In this document: positions 3,465-22,190 of the stretch, piece after piece
How positions within the stretch are numbered: position 1 is the stretch's first letter
Layout of the letters: the number at the start of each line of letters is the position of its first letter
Origin: a virus
Length of the DNA: 22,279 bases
IMG/VR virus record: IMGVR_UViG_3300049847_000388
Span: 1-22,279 of that record
Reading direction: 5' to 3' (one strand)
The notes under the pieces: generated by a model
What the model saw: the letters and a program-made list of their open reading frames with translations, nothing else
Told to the model about the DNA's origin: nothing
Databases searched by the model: none
Position numbers and translations under genes: made by a program

Positions 3465-4567
3465 GCTGTCACCTTTTGGCCGATCTCGAGCGCGTTAAGC
3501 TTGGCCGTGGTCCACGCCGTACTATCGGTCGGGTCTGTGGCGTAGGCTTCATGCGCGGTGACGAAAGTGGTCGACACGACTGCGGCGGCCGTTCCGGTGG
3601 CCGTGCCTCCGGTAGACTTCGTGAGCAGCGCGCCCGAGCGTGAAGACGTTACGTCCGTGCGCCAGGACACGACCGGTTGCACGCACGGAATGATCGCCGT
3701 GCCCGTGATCGCGATCTGATTGTCGATGTTGTACGTGTCCAGTTGGTTCACGGTGGATGACTCGACATAGGTCGCGTCGGCGTCATGAGACCCGATCGGG
3801 TCGTCGACGTTGCTCACGTTCGTGCCCGACAACGGGGTGAACTGCGTGGTCGTACCCGCGGCGTTCGCCAAGGCGTACACCCCGAAGTGGTCCTTCCATC
3901 GGGCGCCGTACAGGCCACCGGGGTCGAAGTACCATTCGCCATGCGTGCGCAGGCGGGTGACCTGCGAGGTCCCCGCGGCGATACCGAACGCCGATGCGAG
4001 TTGCCCCCCGAGGCTCATCCCGTCCACGCCCGCCGTACCGGCGTGCAGCATGTTGCCCGTGTAGGCGACGCATTGGGCGCCGTTGACCCACGCGTCCAGG
4101 AAGCCGCCCCCGCCCGCGTTGGCGAACTTGTAGCGCATCTCGACGAAAGCCCACAGGCCAGCGCGGAACACGGGGAGTTGCGAACGGGCGAACAGAATGT
4201 ACGCCCCGGCTGTGGTCGCATCGCCAACGATGAATTTCCCGAACTGGTCGTATCCGAATGCGATCTGCCCAACCGCACCGACCCAAAAATTCCCGAGCAC
4301 GGTATCGAGCACAGTGCTCGACACCGCGTTTATCGTTGACGGCTTGACGCTGAACCCGGCGTACCCGGTGCCGGTGTAGATGGTGGACACGGATCGCTTG
4401 ATGCCGTGCGCCGCCGCCCCTGGCGTGCTTTCATAGCCGTACGTCCCGGCGCGGCGTCCCGCTCCTGCGGTGATAGCGTGCGTGCCACTGGTCGTGACGG
4501 TGTACGCCTGCCCTTGCTGCGCAGTCGACAGGCGTTGGAACGTCTCGATGAAGGCGTCCTTCGCCAT
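3461..4567 (-). CDS. Lectin-like tail protein, paralogue of the downstream gene
   Basis: The start is the ATG at 4567, which overlaps the previous TAA as TAATG and gives 368 aa (MAKDAFIETFQRLSTAQQ). A longer in-frame extension to 4936 is Arg/His-rich and is only antisense-type read-through into the preceding gene. Shared features with the neighbour at 2385-3464 are TGTGYAGFSVK, LWAFVEMRYKFANAGGGGFLDAWVNG, WYFDPGGLYGARWK, DADATYVESSTVNQLDTYN and the C-terminal block HEAYATDPTDSTAWTTAKLNALEIGQKVTA. The middle resembles a concanavalin A or LamG sandwich. Divergence from the paralogue is highest in the central surface region. It is likely a minor virion or adsorption protein. Confidence 0.82.
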   Translation of the reverse strand: MAKDAFIETFQRLSTAQQGQAYTVTTSGTHAITAGAGRRAGTYGYESTPGAAAHGIKRSVSTIYTGTGYAGFSVKPSTINAVSSTVLDTVLGNFWVGAVGQIAFGYDQFGKFIVGDATTAGAYILFARSQLPVFRAGLWAFVEMRYKFANAGGGGFLDAWVNGAQCVAYTGNMLHAGTAGVDGMSLGGQLASAFGIAAGTSQVTRLRTHGEWYFDPGGLYGARWKDHFGVYALANAAGTTTQFTPLSGTNVSNVDDPIGSHDADATYVESSTVNQLDTYNIDNQIAITGTAIIPCVQPVVSWRTDVTSSRSGALLTKSTGGTATGTAAAVVSTTFVTAHEAYATDPTDSTAWTTAKLNALEIGQKVTA

Positions 4568-5262
4568 TACGGGATGCTCGCTTTGAACGTGAGGCCGATA
4601 TCGGCGAGGGTCGCGTCCGCGGTGGCCGGCCCGATCACTTGGAAGTAGTCGCCGATCGCGAACGTCGTTGCCGTGGTGAAGGTAACCGTCGGGACGGTGC
4701 CTGCTGCGGCCCACACGAGCGTGCCGATCGAAGCCCCGTTCTTGTACAGCGTGACCGTGGTGCTCGCGGTAGCGGCCACGAGCGCCACGAACGAGGAACC
4801 TGTCAACGATGCGGGCAGCGTGGCGCTCGTGGCGAACTTGTACGCCGCGATCAACTTCTGCGAGTTGCCCATCGCGCCGTCGAGCGTGACGGCGATATCC
4901 ATGCTCGTCGAACCCCCGCCCGATACGGTCGCCCACGAAAGGACGCCCGATCCGTCGGTTTTAAGGTACTGATTCGACGTGCCGTCGTCCACCGGCAGCG
5001 TCAGCGTGTAATTCGCGGTCATGCCCGTCGTGGGACGCTGGAAGGTGATCTTCCAGTCCGCTCCGGAGGCCGCTGCGTCACTGTTCAGGACGAAGGAGTC
5101 GCCAGAGATGTTGACGAGCGACGCAGTCACCGCAGAGTCTGCGGTATCGCCGCCGTTGCGAATGAGCAGATTCGACCCGCTCGCTTTCAGTCGCGGGCCG
5201 GACAATCCGAGACGGAAGAACGTCTGGATGGTGCCGAAGATATCTTGCCAAGTGCCGGCCAT
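4567..5262 (-). CDS. Tail protein with conserved N-terminal docking module (copy 2)
   Basis: This 231-aa protein starts at ATG 5262, with GGGAG 5 bases upstream (5268-5272). Residues 1-112 (MAGTWQDIFGTIQTFFRLGLSG, LLIRNGGDTADSAVTAS, LPVDDGTSNQYL, KTDGSGVLSW) are nearly the same as in the gene at 5318-6007. The DDG-x-x-NQ-L-x-TDG-x-G-LSW strand is common in phage fibre and tail proteins. The C-terminal half (about 118-231) is different: MDIAVTLDGAMGNSQKLIAAYKFA, then beta-rich VTLYKNGASIGTLVW and AIGDYFQVIGPATADATLADIGLTFKASIP. The likely reading is a common docking domain carrying interchangeable distal domains. A stable stem-loop lies just upstream of its ribosome binding site. Confidence 0.82.
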   Translation of the reverse strand: MAGTWQDIFGTIQTFFRLGLSGPRLKASGSNLLIRNGGDTADSAVTASLVNISGDSFVLNSDAAASGADWKITFQRPTTGMTANYTLTLPVDDGTSNQYLKTDGSGVLSWATVSGGGSTSMDIAVTLDGAMGNSQKLIAAYKFATSATLPASLTGSSFVALVAATASTTVTLYKNGASIGTLVWAAAGTVPTVTFTTATTFAIGDYFQVIGPATADATLADIGLTFKASIP

Positions 5263-5317: not shown

Positions 5318-6007
5318 TCACGACGGGGTGTAGTACTCGACTTCGATGCGCGCCGCCCCCGCCGATGCGCCACCGGCCGCGTAGGTCGCGATGATCGCCT
5401 CCGCGCCCTGCGCCGTGAGGCCCGGATGCACGGCGAAGGTCGTCGTGGCCGTTGCGGTGAGATCGTTCTGCGTGGATGCCATATACTTCGACGTGGTGCC
5501 CGAAATACCCACACTCACCGTCGGCGTGCCGTTGAAGGCCGTGTCAACGATGATGCGGACCTCGTTGATGATGTCCGAGGCGCCGGTCGTGAACATCGTG
5601 ACCGGCGAAGTCGAACCGAATGCGAGGGACGTACTATCGACCTTGGCGCTCGAGGCGGTGCTCGCCGACGAGGCCCACGACAGCACGCCCGCGCCGTCGG
5701 TTGACAGCACCTGGTTGGGCGTGCCATCGTCCACGGGCAGGGTCAGCGTGTAGCTCGCCGTCATGCCCGTAGAAGGACGTTGGATGGTGATCGACCAGTC
5801 GGCGCCCGTAGCTGCGGCGTCCGAGTTGATGATCAGGCCAACGTCACCCGAAGAACTGTGCGAGCTTGCCGTCACGGTCGCGTCAGCGGTGTCGCCACCG
5901 TTGCGCACGACCAGGTTCGAGCCATTCGCCTTCAGCCGCGGGCCAGACAGACCCAAGCGGAAGAAGGACTGCAACGTACCAAATGCATCGGTCCAGATAC
6001 CGGCCAT
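5318..6007 (-). CDS. Tail protein with conserved N-terminal docking module (copy 1)
   Basis: The 229-aa protein starts at ATG 6007 with AAGGAG at 6014-6019, overlapping the upstream TAA and 6 bases from the start. Residues 1-113 match the N-terminal module of the gene at 4567-5262 (FFRLGLSGPRLKA-GSNL, RNGGDTAD, TGADW, LPVDDGT). Residues about 125-229 (FGSTSPVTMFTTG, EVRIIVDTAFNG, VGISGTTSKYMASTQND, GASAGAARIEVEY) match instead the C-terminal domain of the beta-helix spike at 6018-7388. The protein is thus a chimera of two modules found in its two neighbours. It is probably a virion surface or adsorption component. No enzyme motif is visible. Confidence 0.83.
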   Translation of the reverse strand: MAGIWTDAFGTLQSFFRLGLSGPRLKANGSNLVVRNGGDTADATVTASSHSSSGDVGLIINSDAAATGADWSITIQRPSTGMTASYTLTLPVDDGTPNQVLSTDGAGVLSWASSASTASSAKVDSTSLAFGSTSPVTMFTTGASDIINEVRIIVDTAFNGTPTVSVGISGTTSKYMASTQNDLTATATTTFAVHPGLTAQGAEAIIATYAAGGASAGAARIEVEYYTPS

Positions 6008-12906: not shown

Positions 12907-13125
12907 TCAGGCCCCCGCCAGAATGGATACCGTGACCGTGACGCCCACGGCGGCGGGTGTGTACTTGGCCGCGGCGTGTCCCGCGGCGTCGGTTCGGGTC
13001 GACAACGGCGTGATCGTGCCCGGACCGGTGAGGGTCCACTGCACCGCGACCTCGGGGGCACCGACGTAGCTGATGAGCGACGTTGCGCTGAGGGCGATCA
13101 CCGCGGGGGTAGCCGAGATGCTCAT
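12907..13125 (-). CDS. Single Ig-like (Big-1 type) domain protein
   Basis: This 72-aa protein is a single Ig-like domain: TPAVIALSATSLISYVGAPEVAVQWTLTGPG, then TRTDAAGHAAAKYTPAAVGVTVTVSI. The core VQWTLTGPG and TDAAGHAAAKYTP parallels VEWSLTGPG and SDANGRATVKYLAP at the end of the next gene. Its ATG at 13125 overlaps the tape measure stop (ATGA), and its stop lies one base before the following ATG. Phage Ig-like domains decorate virions and are thought to bind cell-surface carbohydrate weakly. A stand-alone version in this position could be a tail-tip decoration or a domain donor for the two neighbours. It is short but well supported by overlaps and domain match. Confidence 0.78.
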   Translation of the reverse strand: MSISATPAVIALSATSLISYVGAPEVAVQWTLTGPGTITPLSTRTDAAGHAAAKYTPAAVGVTVTVSILAGA

Positions 13126-16100
13126 CGCACCGCTACCTCATTCGCCATGAACCGCTCCATCGCATCGCGGAACGTCATGTCGAGCATCGACTTGTCAATC
13201 ACGAGCGTCGTCCCCGCGCCACCGGCATACGCACTGCCCGGAGTGTTCGGCATATCGCCGATCGGACCGCCGGTGGCGCGGTGCAGTTGCTTCGCAGAAT
13301 TCATTTCCCGCATCACGGTCGACGGGAGCGCGCGCGGCGGGAGCGCATCGCCGTTGATCCACTCCATGAACGGTTGGCCGAGTTGCGCGACGCGCGCCGC
13401 GTTGATCACGTACTCGCCGTTCGAGAGCCACGTCGGGATCGAATCGGATGTGGCGGTGCCCGGACCGGTGATGTAGCCTCCGGTGGCGAAGTTGCCCGCG
13501 GCGAACGCATCGCCGCTCGTGCCACCCCCTGTACCGATGTTCAGTCCGAACAACGCGCCGATCGCCTTGACGCCGGACGAGAGCGACTTGCCCGCGCTAT
13601 CCTCACCGCCGAAGAGCGACGAGTACAACGACTTCGCAAGGTTCTGCGCGATGATATCGTTGAACGTGCGCAGCAACCCCCGCCCGAAGTTTGCGATCGC
13701 TTCCGATGCGTTTTTCGACTCGTTTGCAATGTCGGTGAACAGTCGCGCGATGGCGTTCTCGCCCGCCTGGTCGAATTGCTTCGCCATGTCGTCCTGCACG
13801 ACACGCAATTCTTTGATTTTGACCTTGAGCGCCTCGACCTGTTGGATGGTCTGCGGGTTGCCGATCTCGCGCGCAAGCGCCGCGTACTTCGGCACGAGCG
13901 CATCCAATGCGTCGGCCGTTTCCTTGTGCACCTGAATGACGGCGCGGCGCCCTTCCAATTCGGTGAGCGTGCCGCTGAGAATCTGTAGTTGGATCGTGCG
14001 CTCGCGGTCGGCCTGGCGCTCTTCGATCAACTTGATGTCGCGCTCGACCTGGTCGATAGACTCCTTCGCCACGGTGAGCTTGAGCTTGATCTCGAGTTGC
14101 TCGCGCAGTTGCGGGAATTCCGATTCGTTGGCGATCGCGTCCTGCAACGCTTTGCGATTGGACGCAACCGCCGCGCGGAACGCGGAGCTTGGGTCGAAAT
14201 TCCCGCGGAGCTTCTCGTTCTCGAAAACGAGTTGCGCTTGGGTATCGGACTCCTGCAACCGGCCGCGCGCAATCTCGCGCAGGCGGTTCGCCTCGGCGGC
14301 GGTCTGCAATTCCCGGCCGCGCCGAACGCGCTCTTCGGCCGCGGCGATCTCGCCGTCGATCCGGACTTCTTCTTGCTTCAGGCGCAAGCGGTCGGCATCG
14401 GTCTTGACCGGCGCGCGCTGGATGTCGATCTTCTCCTGCTTGGCGGCGCGGATGATCGACTCTTGATAGGCGATCTCGTTCTGCGCGCCCTCGCGCGCGA
14501 TGCGCGTGCGCTCGTCCCAATACCGCTCGATGCTCACCAGGCCATCGCGGTGATTGTCCTCGAGGAGTTGCGTTTGCGTAGCCAGTTCGGCCTTCTGCTC
14601 CGCGAGCAGAGCGGCGGCGCGGCGCTTGTCCGCCTGCAACTCGGCGCGCTCGAACCCGATCACCGACGAGACGGTAACCGCGCCCTTGCTCTTCTCCTCG
14701 TTGATCTTGCGCACCAGTTCGGCGCGACGGGAAGCGATTTCTTTTGCCTCGGCGTCGGTGATCGGCTTGTCCTCGCCCTTGCGCGCGGCGGAGAACCGTT
14801 TGGCCGCGTCGTCGAACTTGACGAGTTCCTCTTCCAACTTTTGCAGCTTCGGCAGATCGCCGAACGATTGCACGAGCGCGAGCATCGCGGCCGAGTTGCC
14901 GTTCGTGCCGGCGGTTGAGCCGCTCTTTTCGGCGGCCTTGCGCCGCTCCATACCCGAGGCGATTTCCTCGTTGATCGTCTTAAGCGTGGCGACCCGGCGC
15001 TCCTGCTCGGCGATCTCGGCGTCGCTTTCCTTTCGGAACTTCGAGGCGCCGAATTCGGTCGTGTTGCTTCGGCGGAAGGTCTCCTCGACCTCCGCGCGCT
15101 TTTTCTTCATCTCGGCGAGCTTGGCCTCGTCCTTGATGAGTTGCTTCGTGTTGTCCTGAATCTCGGTCATCGAGTTGGCGTTCACGCCATGCTCGGCCTC
15201 GGCGCGCAGCATGCGCAGGCGCTTCTCGAGATCGGCCGTTGTCTGCCCGGCCTTGGTGGCGGCGTCCGCCGCGCTGTTGCCCCAGATCGACCAAGCGGTT
15301 GCGCCCACGGTGAGCAGCAAGAGGATGGCACCAAGCGGCCCGCCCACAAGCCCGAGCGCCCCGGTGAGGGCACCGGAGACGGCCGCCAAGCGTCCCTTGG
15401 AAGCGGCGTGCGTGTCGGTGGCGACGGTGGCCGCGCGTTGCGCCACGGCTTCGGCTTCGGTCGCGGCGGCGGCTCGTGCGGCGGCGGCAGCGCCAGCGGC
15501 GCGCGCGGCGTTCAGCCCGGCAACGGCCGCGGTGTGGTTCTCGGTTGCGACTGCGGCGGCGCGCTCGGCGATCGCGACCTGTTCGAGCGACTGATTGCGC
15601 CGCGCTTCGGCGGCCACGGCCACGAGAGTCGTGCGCTCGGCCAATGCCACGGCCGCTGTGACCTCGGCTTGCGCGACGGCGACGGCGGCGTTGGCGGCGG
15701 CCAATCGTGCCGCCACGGCCTCCCTGCGGGCTTCTGCGGCGGTCGCGAGGGCTTGGGCCTGCGTGTAGCCGCTGACCGCGACAGCGTGGGCCGCTTCGGC
15801 TGCGGCGAGTTCCTGACTGGTACGAACAAGCGCGCCCTGCGCCGCGGCACGCTCGTAGTTGGACGTGGCGCGCTGCGCTTCGGAGAGGGCAGCGGCGCGG
15901 TTGGCCTGCGCGGCGGCGAGCGCTTCGCCAGCGCTCACGACTCGGGCCAGCGCTCCGGCCGCATCGGCGCGAGTGGCGGCGGCCTGCGCAACCGCGTACT
16001 CCTGCGAGGCGAGGATGTTTGCTTGCGTCGCGGCGGCCTGCACGAGACGCTCGCGCGCCAGCGGCACAGCGGCGGCAGCGGCAGCGGCGTCAGCGCGCGC

Positions 16101-17399
16101 GGTCAGGTAGACGGACTCGGCGAGCGCAGCTTCGGCGGTGGCCCGGGCGGCGGCGGTGCGCGCGCCGGTGACGTCGGCTTCTGCTTTGCCAATGGCAGCG
16201 GATGCCGCCGAAACGGCAGCGGTCGCGGCGGCGGAATCAGCGTTCGCCTTGGCGCGCGCGAATGCGGCGCTCTGCGCAGCGGCGGCCGAGGCGGTGGCGT
16301 CCGCCGCGAGCGCCTCGCGTGTGGCGGCGGCAGCGGCACGGCTCTCGATCGTCGACTGCGCGAGCGCCTTTGCCTTGGCCGTGATCGCCTCGGAGAACGA
16401 GATGATCTTGCTCGCGACGAACAGGCCGAGTAGCCCGCCCAAGGCGACCTTCAGTTCGCCGACGTGGTTGTTCGTGAGTTGCGCGACCCGGCCGAGCGCA
16501 TCGAGGCCGCTGGTCGCCGCGTCGGTGAATCCGGACTGCCCGATCTTGATCTGCAAGTCGAACAGGGCATTCTTGAACTTGTTCAGCCGGCCAATTGGCC
16601 CATTGGCGCCCTCGGCGGCGCTGTCTTGAAACAGGGAGTTGATCGAGCGCGACAGCGAGGGGATCACGTCGACGGACGCGAGTTCTCCCTTCTCGAGGAG
16701 CTTCTCGAGTTCCTTCGTCGAGACGCCAAGCGCCTTCGAGAAGATCTGAATGGTGCCGGGCAGGCGCTCGCCCAATTGCTGGCGCAGTTCTTCGGAGGAG
16801 ATTTTCCCCTTCGAGATCATCTGCTGCACGGCTCGGAACGCGCCCTCGAGGTCGGCGTTCGACAAGCCCAAGGTGGCCGATGCGCGCGAGAGGCCGAGGA
16901 AGATGTTGCGTGTTTCCTGGCCCTCGAGCGCGGTGCCCTTGGCGGCGGCGGCGAGCTTGACGTACTCGGGGGCCAGGTCTTTGAAGGACTGGCCGAGTTC
17001 GTCGGAGGTCTTGCGGAGGAAGGCGTACTCTTCGGCGGCGATCTTTGTATCGCCGGTGGCGAATTTCAAGCCCTGACGGGTCTTGAATTCGGTCGCGTTG
17101 GCTTCGAAGACGTTGAAGTCCTTGAAGCCAAGGTCGGCGGGCGCGAGGGTGCGCCAGAGGACGCCGACGGAAACGATCTTCGCGGCCAGGCGGCCGAGGG
17201 CACTTTCGATCGCGTCGACTTGCGCGACGGACGAGGCCCCGGTGCCTGCGGGGATGGTGGCGGCGCGTTCAAGGCTCGCCGAGGTCTTCGTGGCGGCGCC
17301 TTGCAATTGCCCAAGGGACGCATTGATGCCCGAGACGACGGATTGAACGTTTCCGCCCTCAGCAACAAAGCGTACCTTGATGTCCGGCACCGCGGCCAT
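13122..17399 (-). CDS. Tail tape measure protein
   Basis: At 1425 aa this sets tail length and threads the tail lumen. AAGGGG lies 5 bases before the ATG at 17399. Residues about 80-280 carry the conserved tape measure domain, including LEGAFRAVQQMISKGKISSEELRQQLGERLPG. About 337-670 is an extreme Ala-rich helical stretch. A hydrophobic segment follows at about 675-705 (LGLVGGPLGAILLLLTVGATAW). Long charged coiled coils run to about 1240. Near the C-terminus, FATGGYITGPGTATSDSIPTWLSNGEYVINAA is the usual tape-measure ending. At roughly 0.15 nm per residue the tail would be near 210 nm. The gene follows the frameshift extension of the tail chaperone by two bases, and the next gene overlaps its stop by ATGA. 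Confidence 0.95.
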   Translation of the reverse strand: MAAVPDIKVRFVAEGGNVQSVVSGINASLGQLQGAATKTSASLERAATIPAGTGASSVAQVDAIESALGRLAAKIVSVGVLWRTLAPADLGFKDFNVFEANATEFKTRQGLKFATGDTKIAAEEYAFLRKTSDELGQSFKDLAPEYVKLAAAAKGTALEGQETRNIFLGLSRASATLGLSNADLEGAFRAVQQMISKGKISSEELRQQLGERLPGTIQIFSKALGVSTKELEKLLEKGELASVDVIPSLSRSINSLFQDSAAEGANGPIGRLNKFKNALFDLQIKIGQSGFTDAATSGLDALGRVAQLTNNHVGELKVALGGLLGLFVASKIISFSEAITAKAKALAQSTIESRAAAAATREALAADATASAAAAQSAAFARAKANADSAAATAAVSAASAAIGKAEADVTGARTAAARATAEAALAESVYLTARADAAAAAAAVPLARERLVQAAATQANILASQEYAVAQAAATRADAAGALARVVSAGEALAAAQANRAAALSEAQRATSNYERAAAQGALVRTSQELAAAEAAHAVAVSGYTQAQALATAAEARREAVAARLAAANAAVAVAQAEVTAAVALAERTTLVAVAAEARRNQSLEQVAIAERAAAVATENHTAAVAGLNAARAAGAAAAARAAAATEAEAVAQRAATVATDTHAASKGRLAAVSGALTGALGLVGGPLGAILLLLTVGATAWSIWGNSAADAATKAGQTTADLEKRLRMLRAEAEHGVNANSMTEIQDNTKQLIKDEAKLAEMKKKRAEVEETFRRSNTTEFGASKFRKESDAEIAEQERRVATLKTINEEIASGMERRKAAEKSGSTAGTNGNSAAMLALVQSFGDLPKLQKLEEELVKFDDAAKRFSAARKGEDKPITDAEAKEIASRRAELVRKINEEKSKGAVTVSSVIGFERAELQADKRRAAALLAEQKAELATQTQLLEDNHRDGLVSIERYWDERTRIAREGAQNEIAYQESIIRAAKQEKIDIQRAPVKTDADRLRLKQEEVRIDGEIAAAEERVRRGRELQTAAEANRLREIARGRLQESDTQAQLVFENEKLRGNFDPSSAFRAAVASNRKALQDAIANESEFPQLREQLEIKLKLTVAKESIDQVERDIKLIEERQADRERTIQLQILSGTLTELEGRRAVIQVHKETADALDALVPKYAALAREIGNPQTIQQVEALKVKIKELRVVQDDMAKQFDQAGENAIARLFTDIANESKNASEAIANFGRGLLRTFNDIIAQNLAKSLYSSLFGGEDSAGKSLSSGVKAIGALFGLNIGTGGGTSGDAFAAGNFATGGYITGPGTATSDSIPTWLSNGEYVINAARVAQLGQPFMEWINGDALPPRALPSTVMREMNSAKQLHRATGGPIGDMPNTPGSAYAGGAGTTLVIDKSMLDMTFRDAMERFMANEVAVR

Positions 17400-17401
17400 G
17401 T

Positions 17402-18090
17402 CTACCCCTTGCGTAGCGTGTCGATCGCCTTCGTGTACCCTTCCTGCGTGGCCTGCGCCACGCGTCCCGCGTATATATCTCGCAGGATGTCTTCGCGCAC
17501 CGCCTGTTCCGCTGCCTCAAGCATTGACATGAAGCGGGGGAGCGGCATACAAAGGATCTCGGCTACACTGCCGTATCCACGGCTTGCGAGGCGGTCGATA
17601 GCTGCCGCCCAAAGGTCGCGGTTGCTTTCTCGATCATCCCGTCCAGCGCGGGCTTTACCCGCAGGGCGAAAAAACTCACATTCACTTGCAGCACGGCGCC
17701 CATCAAGCGCGCCATGTCGTCGAGCGCCATCGCGCGCAGGTCGGCTTCGTCAAGGCGCGCGCCGATCGCGACCGCCTTGATGATCTCGTCGCCGTACAGC
17801 ACGAGCAACGAGAACAGATCGACGTCGACCCGGCTACTCGCTTCGGCGGTCTCGAGCGCGGCCAGCGCGGCTTCGCTCTCGGTGCCGGGCGCGGCGGTCT
17901 TGACCGCCGTGTCGATCGCATCTTGAATCCGCGACTTGACGAGGGCGACTTGCGCCGAGACGTGGTCCCACATCGGGGCCACGGCTCGGGCGAACTTCGT
18001 GACTTCTGCGACCCGTACCGGGTGCACTGTCACCTGCCGGCCGTCTTCGAGCGAGACGGTTACCGACAGGTCATCGATGGCTGAAGACAT
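17402..18090 (-). CDS. Tail assembly chaperone, -1 frameshifted long form (gpGT-like)
   Basis: Residues 1-141 are read in the first frame up to SFF. A -1 slip at the T TTT TTC site (17668-17674) then adds 88 residues, ending at TAG 17402-17404, for 229 aa in total. The added part contains DLWAAAIDRLASRGYGSVAEILCMPLPRF, then a helical, charged end (EAAEQAVREDILRDIYAGRV, TQEGYTKAIDTLRKG). This resembles the T segment of chaperones that bind tape measure and tail tube. Three facts support it: the extension frame is open exactly to the tape measure ribosome binding site, no other gene would fill 17402-17562, and a stem-loop sits 5 bases after the slip site. Frameshifting here is predicted, not shown. 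Confidence 0.8.
17563..18090 (-). CDS. Tail assembly chaperone, short form (gpG-like)
   Basis: This 175-aa protein lies between tail tube and tape measure, the invariant place of tail assembly chaperones. AAGGAAG lies just upstream of ATG 18090. The N-terminal 60 residues are beta-rich then helical (DLSVTVSLEDGRQVTVHPVRVAEVTKFARAVAPMW). The middle is helical and acidic (EAALAALETAEASSRVDVDLFSLLVLYGDEIIKAVAIGAR, LDDMARLMGAVLQVNVSFF). After SFF the frame ends with ALRVKPALDGMIEKATATFG. The frameshifted long form shares residues 1-141. These proteins coat the tape measure before the tube polymerises and are absent from the mature virion. Identification rests on position, size and the slip signal. 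Confidence 0.85.
   Translation of the reverse strand: MSSAIDDLSVTVSLEDGRQVTVHPVRVAEVTKFARAVAPMWDHVSAQVALVKSRIQDAIDTAVKTAAPGTESEAALAALETAEASSRVDVDLFSLLVLYGDEIIKAVAIGARLDEADLRAMALDDMARLMGAVLQVNVSFFALRVKPALDGMIEKATATFGRQLSTASQAVDTAV
17648..17674 (-). promoter_or_regulatory. Programmed -1 ribosomal frameshift signal
   Basis: The heptamer T TTT TTC is in the correct phase of the first frame (codons AGT TTT TTC, 17668-17676). After a 5-base spacer (GCCCT) comes a 6-bp stem, GCGGGU pairing with GCCCGC around AAA (17648-17662). Slippery site, spacing and stem match bacterial -1 frameshift elements. The -1 frame is then open for 88 codons up to the tape measure gene. Confidence 0.8.
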
Positions 18091-18099
18091 GGACTTCCT

Positions 18100-18879
18100 T
18101 TACACGAGGACCTTGATATCGCCGAACGATCCGAGGGACGAGCCGAGCGGTTGCAGCGTGTCGGCCAGCACTTCACCGGTGAGCTTGAAGTCCGCGAACT
18201 TGTCCGAGGTGATCGTCGGGAGTTGGTCGGCCAGGTTGATGCGCACGCGGTACAGTTCGATGATGCGCTTCTTCGAGTCGAGCTTGTTGATGACCTCGAG
18301 GCGGATCCACCGTTCCGGCGCCGGTTGCGAGAACATCGCGAAGTCGGTGCGCACGTCGTAGATGTAATCGATCAGCGGCGCGAGCGTGGCGCTGGCGGTT
18401 GCGAACGCGGCGGACAGGACCTTGATGCGTCCGGTTTTCGCGTCGTCAACGCGGTAGTCCGTCCCGGCGACGTAGGTCGTGCCCCCGGTGCTGTCCGTGA
18501 TCACGACGGTACCGATGTCCGGGTTCTTCGTGAACAGGTAGTCGCCGACGGAGAATCCGGTCGGGAGCACCTCGTTCGTCACCGTGCCGCCAGCGACCGC
18601 GGCTTTCGAGCCGTAGAGCGCAAGCGCCAGCATGTCGAGGTTGAAGTTTTCGGCCGTGGCCTCGAACGTGCCCTCACGTCGGTAGCCGACCACTTCATCC
18701 TGAAAGTCGTCGCCCGAGTACGACTCGAAGTGCTTGAGGATCTGTTCCTGGAACTTCACCATCGCGTCGGTGAAGTTGCCGAGCCAGGTGAACGCGCCGG
18801 GGAGGCCCGTGACCGGATCTTTTGCGGCGGCGAAGACCCGCGCGCGGGGGAACATGTAGTAGTTGTCGGCAGCGGGCAT
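18100..18879 (-). CDS. Major tail tube protein
   Basis: The 259-aa protein polymerises as hexameric rings to form the tail tube around the tape measure. AGGAG at 18886-18890 is 6 bases from ATG 18879 and overlaps the previous stop. The first half contains YYMFPRARVFAAAKDPVTGLPGAFTWLGNFTDAMVKFQEQ and EVVGYRREGTFEATAENFNLDMLALALYG, a pattern seen in siphophage tube proteins (an early strand block, then a loop and helix before the second beta sheet). The second half has VVITDSTGGTTYVAGTDYRVD and WIRLEVINKLDSKKRIIELYRVRI. Position before the chaperone and tape measure supports the call. There is no sheath gene, so the tail should be non-contractile. Confidence 0.87.
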   Translation of the reverse strand: MPAADNYYMFPRARVFAAAKDPVTGLPGAFTWLGNFTDAMVKFQEQILKHFESYSGDDFQDEVVGYRREGTFEATAENFNLDMLALALYGSKAAVAGGTVTNEVLPTGFSVGDYLFTKNPDIGTVVITDSTGGTTYVAGTDYRVDDAKTGRIKVLSAAFATASATLAPLIDYIYDVRTDFAMFSQPAPERWIRLEVINKLDSKKRIIELYRVRINLADQLPTITSDKFADFKLTGEVLADTLQPLGSSLGSFGDIKVLV

Positions 18880-20021: not shown

Positions 20022-22190
20022 TTACACGCCGTCGTTCTTGACCCAGGTCTTGTCGTCCCATCCCTTCACGCCCACGTCGATGCGCACCTTGAATTCGGTG
20101 CCGTCGATGTGCCACCCGTCCTTCTGTTCGAGCAGCGGCCGGGTCTGGCCGTCGAGGTACAGAAGCTGGAAGCCGTCGTACCGCTTCTGGTCTGCGAAGG
20201 CGAAGTACGGGAGCGGGCCGCCGGCAAAGGCGTCGTCGAGTCGGACTTCCGTGATGATATCGAACGCGCCGCGCACGACGTTCACGGTCCGGCTCGTGTC
20301 GTCCACGGTGTCGGTGATCGACACTTTGAACTCGTTGCCCTTGACCACGTTCAGTCGGTCGAGCAGTGCGACCGGCGCGAGGATTCCTTTCATCGGGATG
20401 TTGAGCGACTTGGTGCTACCCGCGAGATTCGCCGGGAGCTTGCGCATGCGCATCGCAAGGCGCATTGCCGCGATGCTATCGGTCGAGGGCACGGAGGCCG
20501 CGGCGCCGGTGATGTGGTTCAGGTGGTTCACCGCATCGAAGAGCGGGAATCCGTCGCGCATGACCGGGTTCGACAGGAGGTAGGCATACACCAGGTCGCC
20601 GATGTGACGCGGTACCGCGTTGCCTTGCTTCTGCGGGATGCGGGTGAACGCCGACATGTCATCGTTGATCACCATCTGGCGCGAGATGTTGAACATCTTG
20701 CCGTAGGTGAGGATCGCCGCGGTGTCGCCGGTCTCGCCGATCGTCGCGTATTTGTACTCGCCGTTTTCCTTGATCAGATCAAGGCCGCCGAGGAAGCCCA
20801 TGTCGATGCGGGTGATCGGACGGAAGTCGGGCACGCTGCCGGTGTCGATCCACTGGTCGTACGTCTCGCCTTCCGCGCCTTCGTCGTAGCCCTTCAGCAT
20901 CGTGCGGTTCACGAGGCTCGTGAGGAAGAGGGGGAAGTCGCTGGTCGAGTGCGTGAAGGCCGCGCCAACGACGTCGAGCTTCGACATCGAGTAGGGGTTC
21001 ACGCCCGAGAGGCGAAGCGATTCGCGTGCGAAGTCAAGCATGCTCGCACCGCGGAAGGTGTTCGCGGCAACGTTCTTGCGCTCGGCGACGGGCACGAGGT
21101 CGAGCATGCCAACGCGCTCGAGGATCGCCATTTCGGCGCCGATCCGGAAGTTGTCCTTCGCGTCGACCGTGGTGCGCACGCCCTGGCCTGCGGCGACGGG
21201 CTCAACGCCTTTCGCTGCGGCTTCGAGGAGCTTGGCGCCAACGGCTTCGACCGTCTGCGTGGTGTCGGCGAGCGCGGCCATTTTCAGGTCGACGAACGCT
21301 TGGCCCTTGTCCTCGAACGGCTTGAACATGGCGACGATCGCGTTCACGCGGACCTGCGGGTCGAGCGCAACGGGTGCCGATGCAGGTGCAGGTGCAGGTG
21401 CAGGTGCAGGTGCAGGTGCAGGCGCCGGTGCCGGTGCAGCGGCGGGTGCAGGCGCCGGTGCCGGTGCAGCGGCGGGTGCGGGGTCGGCCGCGGGTCGGAT
21501 TGCCGCTTGTGCTTTCACCGCGTCAGCAACGGCCTGCGCGACGAGAGCTTTGATCGCTTCCTCGTTCATGGTGATTCGGTCCTTAAGAGTCGCGGCTACT
21601 GCCGCAGGGAGTTGCTTGAACTGCGACAGGTCGGCACTTGCGAGGACGCCGCCTTCCACCACTGCATCGGCAAAGCCAGCTTCAACCGCGGCCTCAGCCG
21701 TGAAATAGTGATCTTTGGAACCGTCGAGCATCGCCATGATCTCGGCCTTGCTCTTCCCGGTCTTCGTTTCGTACGCGCCCGCCATCGCCTCGGCGTAGGT
21801 GTCGAGCGTCTCGGCCAGCTTGCGCAGGTCGTGCGCGCTTCCGGTAGCCCCGATCCAAGGCCCATGGATCATCATGAGCGACGCTTTCGCCATCTCGATG
21901 CGCGTTCCTGCCATCGCGATGAGGCTCGCGATCGACGCGGCCAGGCCCTCGACGGAAACGACGAGATCGCCCTTGAAGCGCTTCAACGTGTTGTAGATCG
22001 CCAAGCCTTCGGCGACTGATCCGCCTTCGGAGTTGATCCGGATCACGGCGCGCGGCGTCTTGACTTTCGCGAAATCGGCGGCGAACGCTTTCGCGGTGAG
22101 GCCCTCTTCGAAGAAGGACTCGCCGATCCGGCCGAAGATCATGACCTCGGTTGTCGTCTCGCTTTTCGCTTGGATGCGGTAATAGCTCAT
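20022..22190 (-). CDS. Prohead protease (ClpP type) fused to major capsid protein
   Basis: The 722-aa protein joins two functions that are separate in most phages. Residues 1-190 are a ClpP/S49-type serine protease: S86 in EGLAASIASL, H109 in MMIHGPW and D160 in GSKDHYFTAEAAVEAG fit the Ser-His-Asp triad. Residues 208-232 are a helical segment (MNEEAIKALVAQAVADAVKAQ). Residues 235-273 are an Ala-Pro linker. Residues about 278-722 are the capsid protein (FRIGAEMAILERVGMLDLV, GYDEGAEGETYDQWIDTGSVPDFRP, FPLFDAVNHLNH, PFAGGPLPYFAFAD-type ending). Such fusions are known in several siphophages. Start ATG 22190 overlaps an upstream TGA (ATGA). A possible internal start at 21569 would give capsid protein without protease. 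Confidence 0.92.
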   Translation of the reverse strand: MSYYRIQAKSETTTEVMIFGRIGESFFEEGLTAKAFAADFAKVKTPRAVIRINSEGGSVAEGLAIYNTLKRFKGDLVVSVEGLAASIASLIAMAGTRIEMAKASLMMIHGPWIGATGSAHDLRKLAETLDTYAEAMAGAYETKTGKSKAEIMAMLDGSKDHYFTAEAAVEAGFADAVVEGGVLASADLSQFKQLPAAVAATLKDRITMNEEAIKALVAQAVADAVKAQAAIRPAADPAPAAAPAPAPAPAAAPAPAPAPAPAPAPAPAPASAPVALDPQVRVNAIVAMFKPFEDKGQAFVDLKMAALADTTQTVEAVGAKLLEAAAKGVEPVAAGQGVRTTVDAKDNFRIGAEMAILERVGMLDLVPVAERKNVAANTFRGASMLDFARESLRLSGVNPYSMSKLDVVGAAFTHSTSDFPLFLTSLVNRTMLKGYDEGAEGETYDQWIDTGSVPDFRPITRIDMGFLGGLDLIKENGEYKYATIGETGDTAAILTYGKMFNISRQMVINDDMSAFTRIPQKQGNAVPRHIGDLVYAYLLSNPVMRDGFPLFDAVNHLNHITGAAASVPSTDSIAAMRLAMRMRKLPANLAGSTKSLNIPMKGILAPVALLDRLNVVKGNEFKVSITDTVDDTSRTVNVVRGAFDIITEVRLDDAFAGGPLPYFAFADQKRYDGFQLLYLDGQTRPLLEQKDGWHIDGTEFKVRIDVGVKGWDDKTWVKNDGV
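21381..21480 (-). repeat. Hexamer and 30-bp tandem repeats coding the Ala-Pro linker
   Basis: Bases 21381-21420 are TGCAGG repeated six and two-thirds times on the plus strand. They are followed by two tandem 30-bp units (21421-21450 and 21451-21480) that differ only at the last base. Both lie in frame within the linker between protease and capsid domains and encode alternating Ala and Pro. Unit changes of 6 or 30 bp would keep the frame, so linker length can vary without loss of the protein. Confidence 0.92.
21580..21584 (-). promoter_or_regulatory. Possible internal ribosome binding site for protease-free capsid protein
   Basis: AAGGA lies 10 bases upstream of an in-frame ATG at 21569 (residue 208), placed exactly between the end of the protease domain and the helical segment plus linker. 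Initiation here would give a 515-aa capsid precursor lacking the protease. The spacing is at the long end of the usable range. Confidence 0.45.

Follow-up and report, generated by a model that had tools for sequence, protein, structure and literature searches.

A probable lambda-type G/GT gene for tail assembly chaperones, with a -1 ribosomal slip site, in an uncultivated phage

In phage lambda, G attaches to the tape measure protein, as does the G portion of GT, and T attaches to the major tail subunit; it matters in which ratio the two forms are present (PMC5009743). A shift into the -1 frame is the usual case; in the corresponding gene of PaMx73, a P. aeruginosa Mu-like phage of the D3112 type, the heptamer T TTT TTC is reported at codons 116-118 (PMC4378225). 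Among the public relatives of the locus described here, the long form is already annotated in four: the record of Stenotrophomonas phage Summit lists a 'tape measure chaperone frameshift product', gpG and gpGT are annotated in Pseudomonas phage MP29 and Stenotrophomonas phage phiSHP3, and a joined tail assembly chaperone is given for Rhodobacter phage RcRios.

The window analysed here is the whole stretch of 22,279 nucleotides of the IMG/VR virus record IMGVR_UViG_3300049847_000388. On its minus strand, an ORF of 175 aa starts with an ATG at 18090, has the last base of its stop codon at 17563 and matches the tail assembly chaperone family phrog_1442 (E 1.4e-15). It is gene G, encoding the short form of the chaperone (17563..18090). 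It lies between the genes for the major tail protein (upstream, 18100..18879, minus strand, 259 aa; phrog_807, E 4.2e-54) and the tape measure protein (downstream, 13122..17399, minus strand, 1425 aa; phrog_2335, E 1.3e-84), that is, where a G/GT gene is expected. The short G stop and the tape measure ATG are separated by 163 bases.

Some other features of this window may be mentioned. On the minus strand at 20022-22190, an ORF of 722 aa matches a head maturation protease along its whole length and, in its last two thirds, a 'major head and protease protein'. Since both matches fall into one ORF, this is apparently a fusion of the protease with the major capsid protein. Two adjoining ORFs in the tail-side region (4567-5262 and 5318-6007, minus strand) are nearly identical over their first ~110 residues and apparently represent a duplicated gene. 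At the contig end (2-300, minus strand) there is a putative coding frame with a run of short repeated units resembling HRRTPA/HCRTPA.

Close to the 3' end of G the codons read GTG AGT TTT TTC GCC; T TTT TTC (17674..17668, minus strand, codons 140-141 of G) thus stands in the X XXY YYZ phase appropriate for a -1 shift. In seven genes of the window, with 3458 codon positions in all, there is no other in-phase slippery heptamer that has Y = A or T. Upstream of it, no clear Shine-Dalgarno-like stimulator was seen by eye. The -1 frame, here called the T segment (17402..17668, minus strand), passes the G stop; counted from behind the FF encoded at the slip, it has 88 codons without a stop and ends with a TAG at 17404..17402; two bases later follows the tape measure ATG at 17399. 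The long product GT would hence comprise 141 + 88 = 229 aa. However, a -1 frame of equal length arose in 17% of simulations which used the codon usage and base composition of the window. The open frame on its own is therefore weak evidence, near to the chance level, and was set aside.

These readings agree largely with a first-pass annotation of the same DNA. The in-phase heptamer, the 88-codon frame and the TAG two bases ahead of the tape measure gene were all recovered when the sequence was read again, and the proposal that this so far unlabelled ORF encodes a tail assembly chaperone is borne out by the phrog_1442 match as well as by relatives with annotated gpG/gpGT pairs. The gap before the tape measure gene, counted there as 161 bases, has to be corrected to the length given above. 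The length of 229 aa for the long form stands; the accompanying statement that this form is needed for tail assembly is too strong, because this is known for lambda and may be supposed here.

In its arrangement the locus resembles lambda gpG/gpGT: the site is flanked by the genes for the major tail protein and the tape measure protein, a -1 shift would occur near the end of G, and the T segment ends just before the tape measure start. This likeness is one of gene arrangement; the slippage itself, its rate and the roles of G and GT in the window phage are inferred. Most ribosomes would read G to its own stop, yielding the 175-aa protein. A minority would move back by one base on T TTT TTC, with both Phe-tRNAs re-pairing with UUU, and would then read on through the T segment to give GT. 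As in lambda, both G and GT, the latter through its G part, may bind the tape measure protein, and the T part may recruit the major tail protein so that the tail tube is built to its correct length. Judged by the sequence, it is very probable that this is a lambda-type G/GT gene whose long form is made through -1 ribosomal slippage.

A close relative of this phage is not present in the collections searched. With G or T alone as query, no relative was obtained among viral contigs or phage records, megablast with the whole window gave no match, and a scan of the viral contigs with only the major tail protein was likewise without a relative. As the G and T queries had remained without matches, relatives were approached via the neighbouring genes. 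An alignment of 11 major tail protein sequences was too diverse for scanning, and one of four sequences worked. A locus was accepted if the ORF after the major tail protein carried an in-phase heptamer in its last part and a -1 extension past its stop. Altogether 69 loci conform to this rule, a number which is not a fraction of any defined total, and 48 are left after clustering of their T segments at 70% identity. The heptamers in these 48 are T TTT TTT and T TTT TTC (16 each), C CCT TTC (six), A AAA AAG (five) and others (five). In 37 of the 41 T- or C-based sites, inspection by eye shows an Asn, mostly within Val-Asn, at a constant position immediately ahead of the slip; the context reads VNxx-FF or VNG-PF in the relatives and VNVS-FF in the window. 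Because the rule required a heptamer, the 69 loci are selected for its presence. At the level of sequence, the independent evidence is the homology of the T segments together with the constant context of the site, not the locus count. Loci classified as lacking a slip site often have no chaperone-like ORF behind the major tail protein by the simple rule (for instance, an ORF of 900-1100 aa, or none), and therefore are not counter-examples. In RcRios, V16 and a Loktanella phage (Casjensviridae) the rule gives other X XXY YYZ sites or none; RcRios is nonetheless annotated as frameshifted.

The named relatives illustrate how far the likeness goes. Summit and DLP_3, Stenotrophomonas phages of the genus Delepquintavirus, are the best relatives by their major tail protein (34-36% identity). 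Their heptamer follows VNMD at the same place as in the window, and for Summit the frameshift product is annotated, but the heptamer is T TTT TTT and the T segment is ~20% identical. The D3112-type P. aeruginosa phages (MP29, PaMx73) share with the window T TTT TTC, the gene order and a homologous T segment, although the one of MP29 is only ~17% identical. In P. aeruginosa phages of the B3/Fc02 type the gene order is the same as well, and none of the T segments found is closer to that of the window than the one of Fc02 (30%, with the stretch GYGSVA in common); these differ from the window in their heptamer, C CCT TTC, and their records contain no annotated long form. Behind the chaperone gene, B3, Fc02, DLP_3 and QH16 have ORFs labelled 'hypothetical protein' (L025:4262-4393, L027:4169-4312, L024:4321-4449 and L032:3916-4065, respectively). 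These small ORFs are the ends of -1 T segments, so that the four records lack the long form. A different organization is seen in a relative on a viral contig of 132,772 bp (L047:4266-5323), where G-like and T-like parts stand in one frame of 185 aa without a heptamer, with phrog_1442 matching at the start and phrog_8022 at the end. Behind it stands a further gene for a tail assembly chaperone, which belongs to a different family (phrog_313, E 1.1e-17). In this contig a fused protein, together with a chaperone encoded separately, may have taken the place of the frameshift.

A profile was built from 36 non-redundant T segments of relatives, the window being excluded, and run against the 386 stop-to-stop frames of the window. 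Its only significant match is the -1 frame behind the slip site (E 9e-13, 42.9 bits, 89 of 90 columns); the second-best frame reached E 0.015. The first aligned residues are exactly the FF encoded at the slip site. With an earlier profile, made from 12 segments, the same frame had reached E 5.7e-6 versus 0.22 for the next one. The first-pass annotation had suggested comparing the extension with T segments of related phages, and this comparison came out in its favour; many relatives also have a slippery heptamer at the position homologous to that of the window. The gene, its slip site, the open frame and the homology of the -1 frame to the T segments of other phages are directly established.

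This match also bears on the idea that the -1 frame is open by mere chance and that the 163 bases before the tape measure gene are non-coding. High G+C content favours long open frames, as seen in the 17% of the simulation, but homology over 89 of 90 columns contradicts a chance opening, and the arrangement is kept in relatives of very different sequence. We give this idea practically no credence. It is also very improbable that T is translated as a small protein of its own from a start within the -1 frame, for example the ATG of MPLPRFMSML (48 aa), for which no frameshift would be needed. Separate small ORFs are indeed annotated at the T position in DLP_3, B3, Fc02 and QH16, and the 47-aa PHROG phrog_8022 matches the end of a T-like segment in one relative. 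However, the first ATG of the -1 frame is without a Shine-Dalgarno sequence (GTAGCCGAGATCCTTTGTATG), and conserved residues of T, the W...L...G part, lie upstream of it, which makes such a start unlikely. Furthermore, the heptamer is retained at the homologous place in relatives, and the record of Summit, a phage congeneric with DLP_3, gives a frameshift product instead.

The long form might also originate from transcriptional rather than ribosomal slippage. RNA polymerase is known to slip on homopolymers in bacteria, and the window offers a run of six T, with seven or more in many relatives. Yet six T is short for polymerase slippage. Moreover, several relatives use C CCT TTC, at which tandem tRNA slippage is possible and a long run does not exist. 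For this reason the transcriptional explanation fits less well, and we assign it a very small likelihood.

Ribosomal -1 slippage on T TTT TTC is thus the reading we retain, and for it a stimulating structure downstream has to be considered, although some known G/GT genes do without one. After a spacer of five bases (GCCCT, 17667..17663) there is a hairpin, GCGGGT-AAA-GCCCGC, with a 6-bp stem and an AAA loop (17648..17662, minus strand), which would be a possible stimulator. The first-pass annotation had spoken of a complete frameshift signal. Heptamer, spacer and stem with its AAA loop are all present; however, 6% of shuffled versions of this part of the sequence contain a hairpin of the same kind, as do 8% of window positions, and the folding z-score is about -0.6. 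In the window and its relatives together, a comparable hairpin occurs at 5 of 42 sites versus 3.7 expected. The hairpin thus does not exceed chance expectation, it is not conserved, and it is not supported as a proven component of the signal. Being close to the chance level, it was dropped as evidence. Since hairpins stay at this level over all 42 sites, one might suppose that in this phage group shifting generally works without any downstream stimulator, with nothing but the heptamer and its close surroundings determining the G:GT ratio; we consider this rather unlikely.

Summarizing, the G/GT reading of this locus is very probably correct, and the arrangement is an ordinary one, well described in long-tailed phages. 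The understanding of tail assembly is unchanged by this case. Its value lies in the corrected annotation of one uncultivated phage, for which gene callers would miss a GT protein of 229 aa, and in the fact that T segments can be recognised by a profile at ~20% identity.
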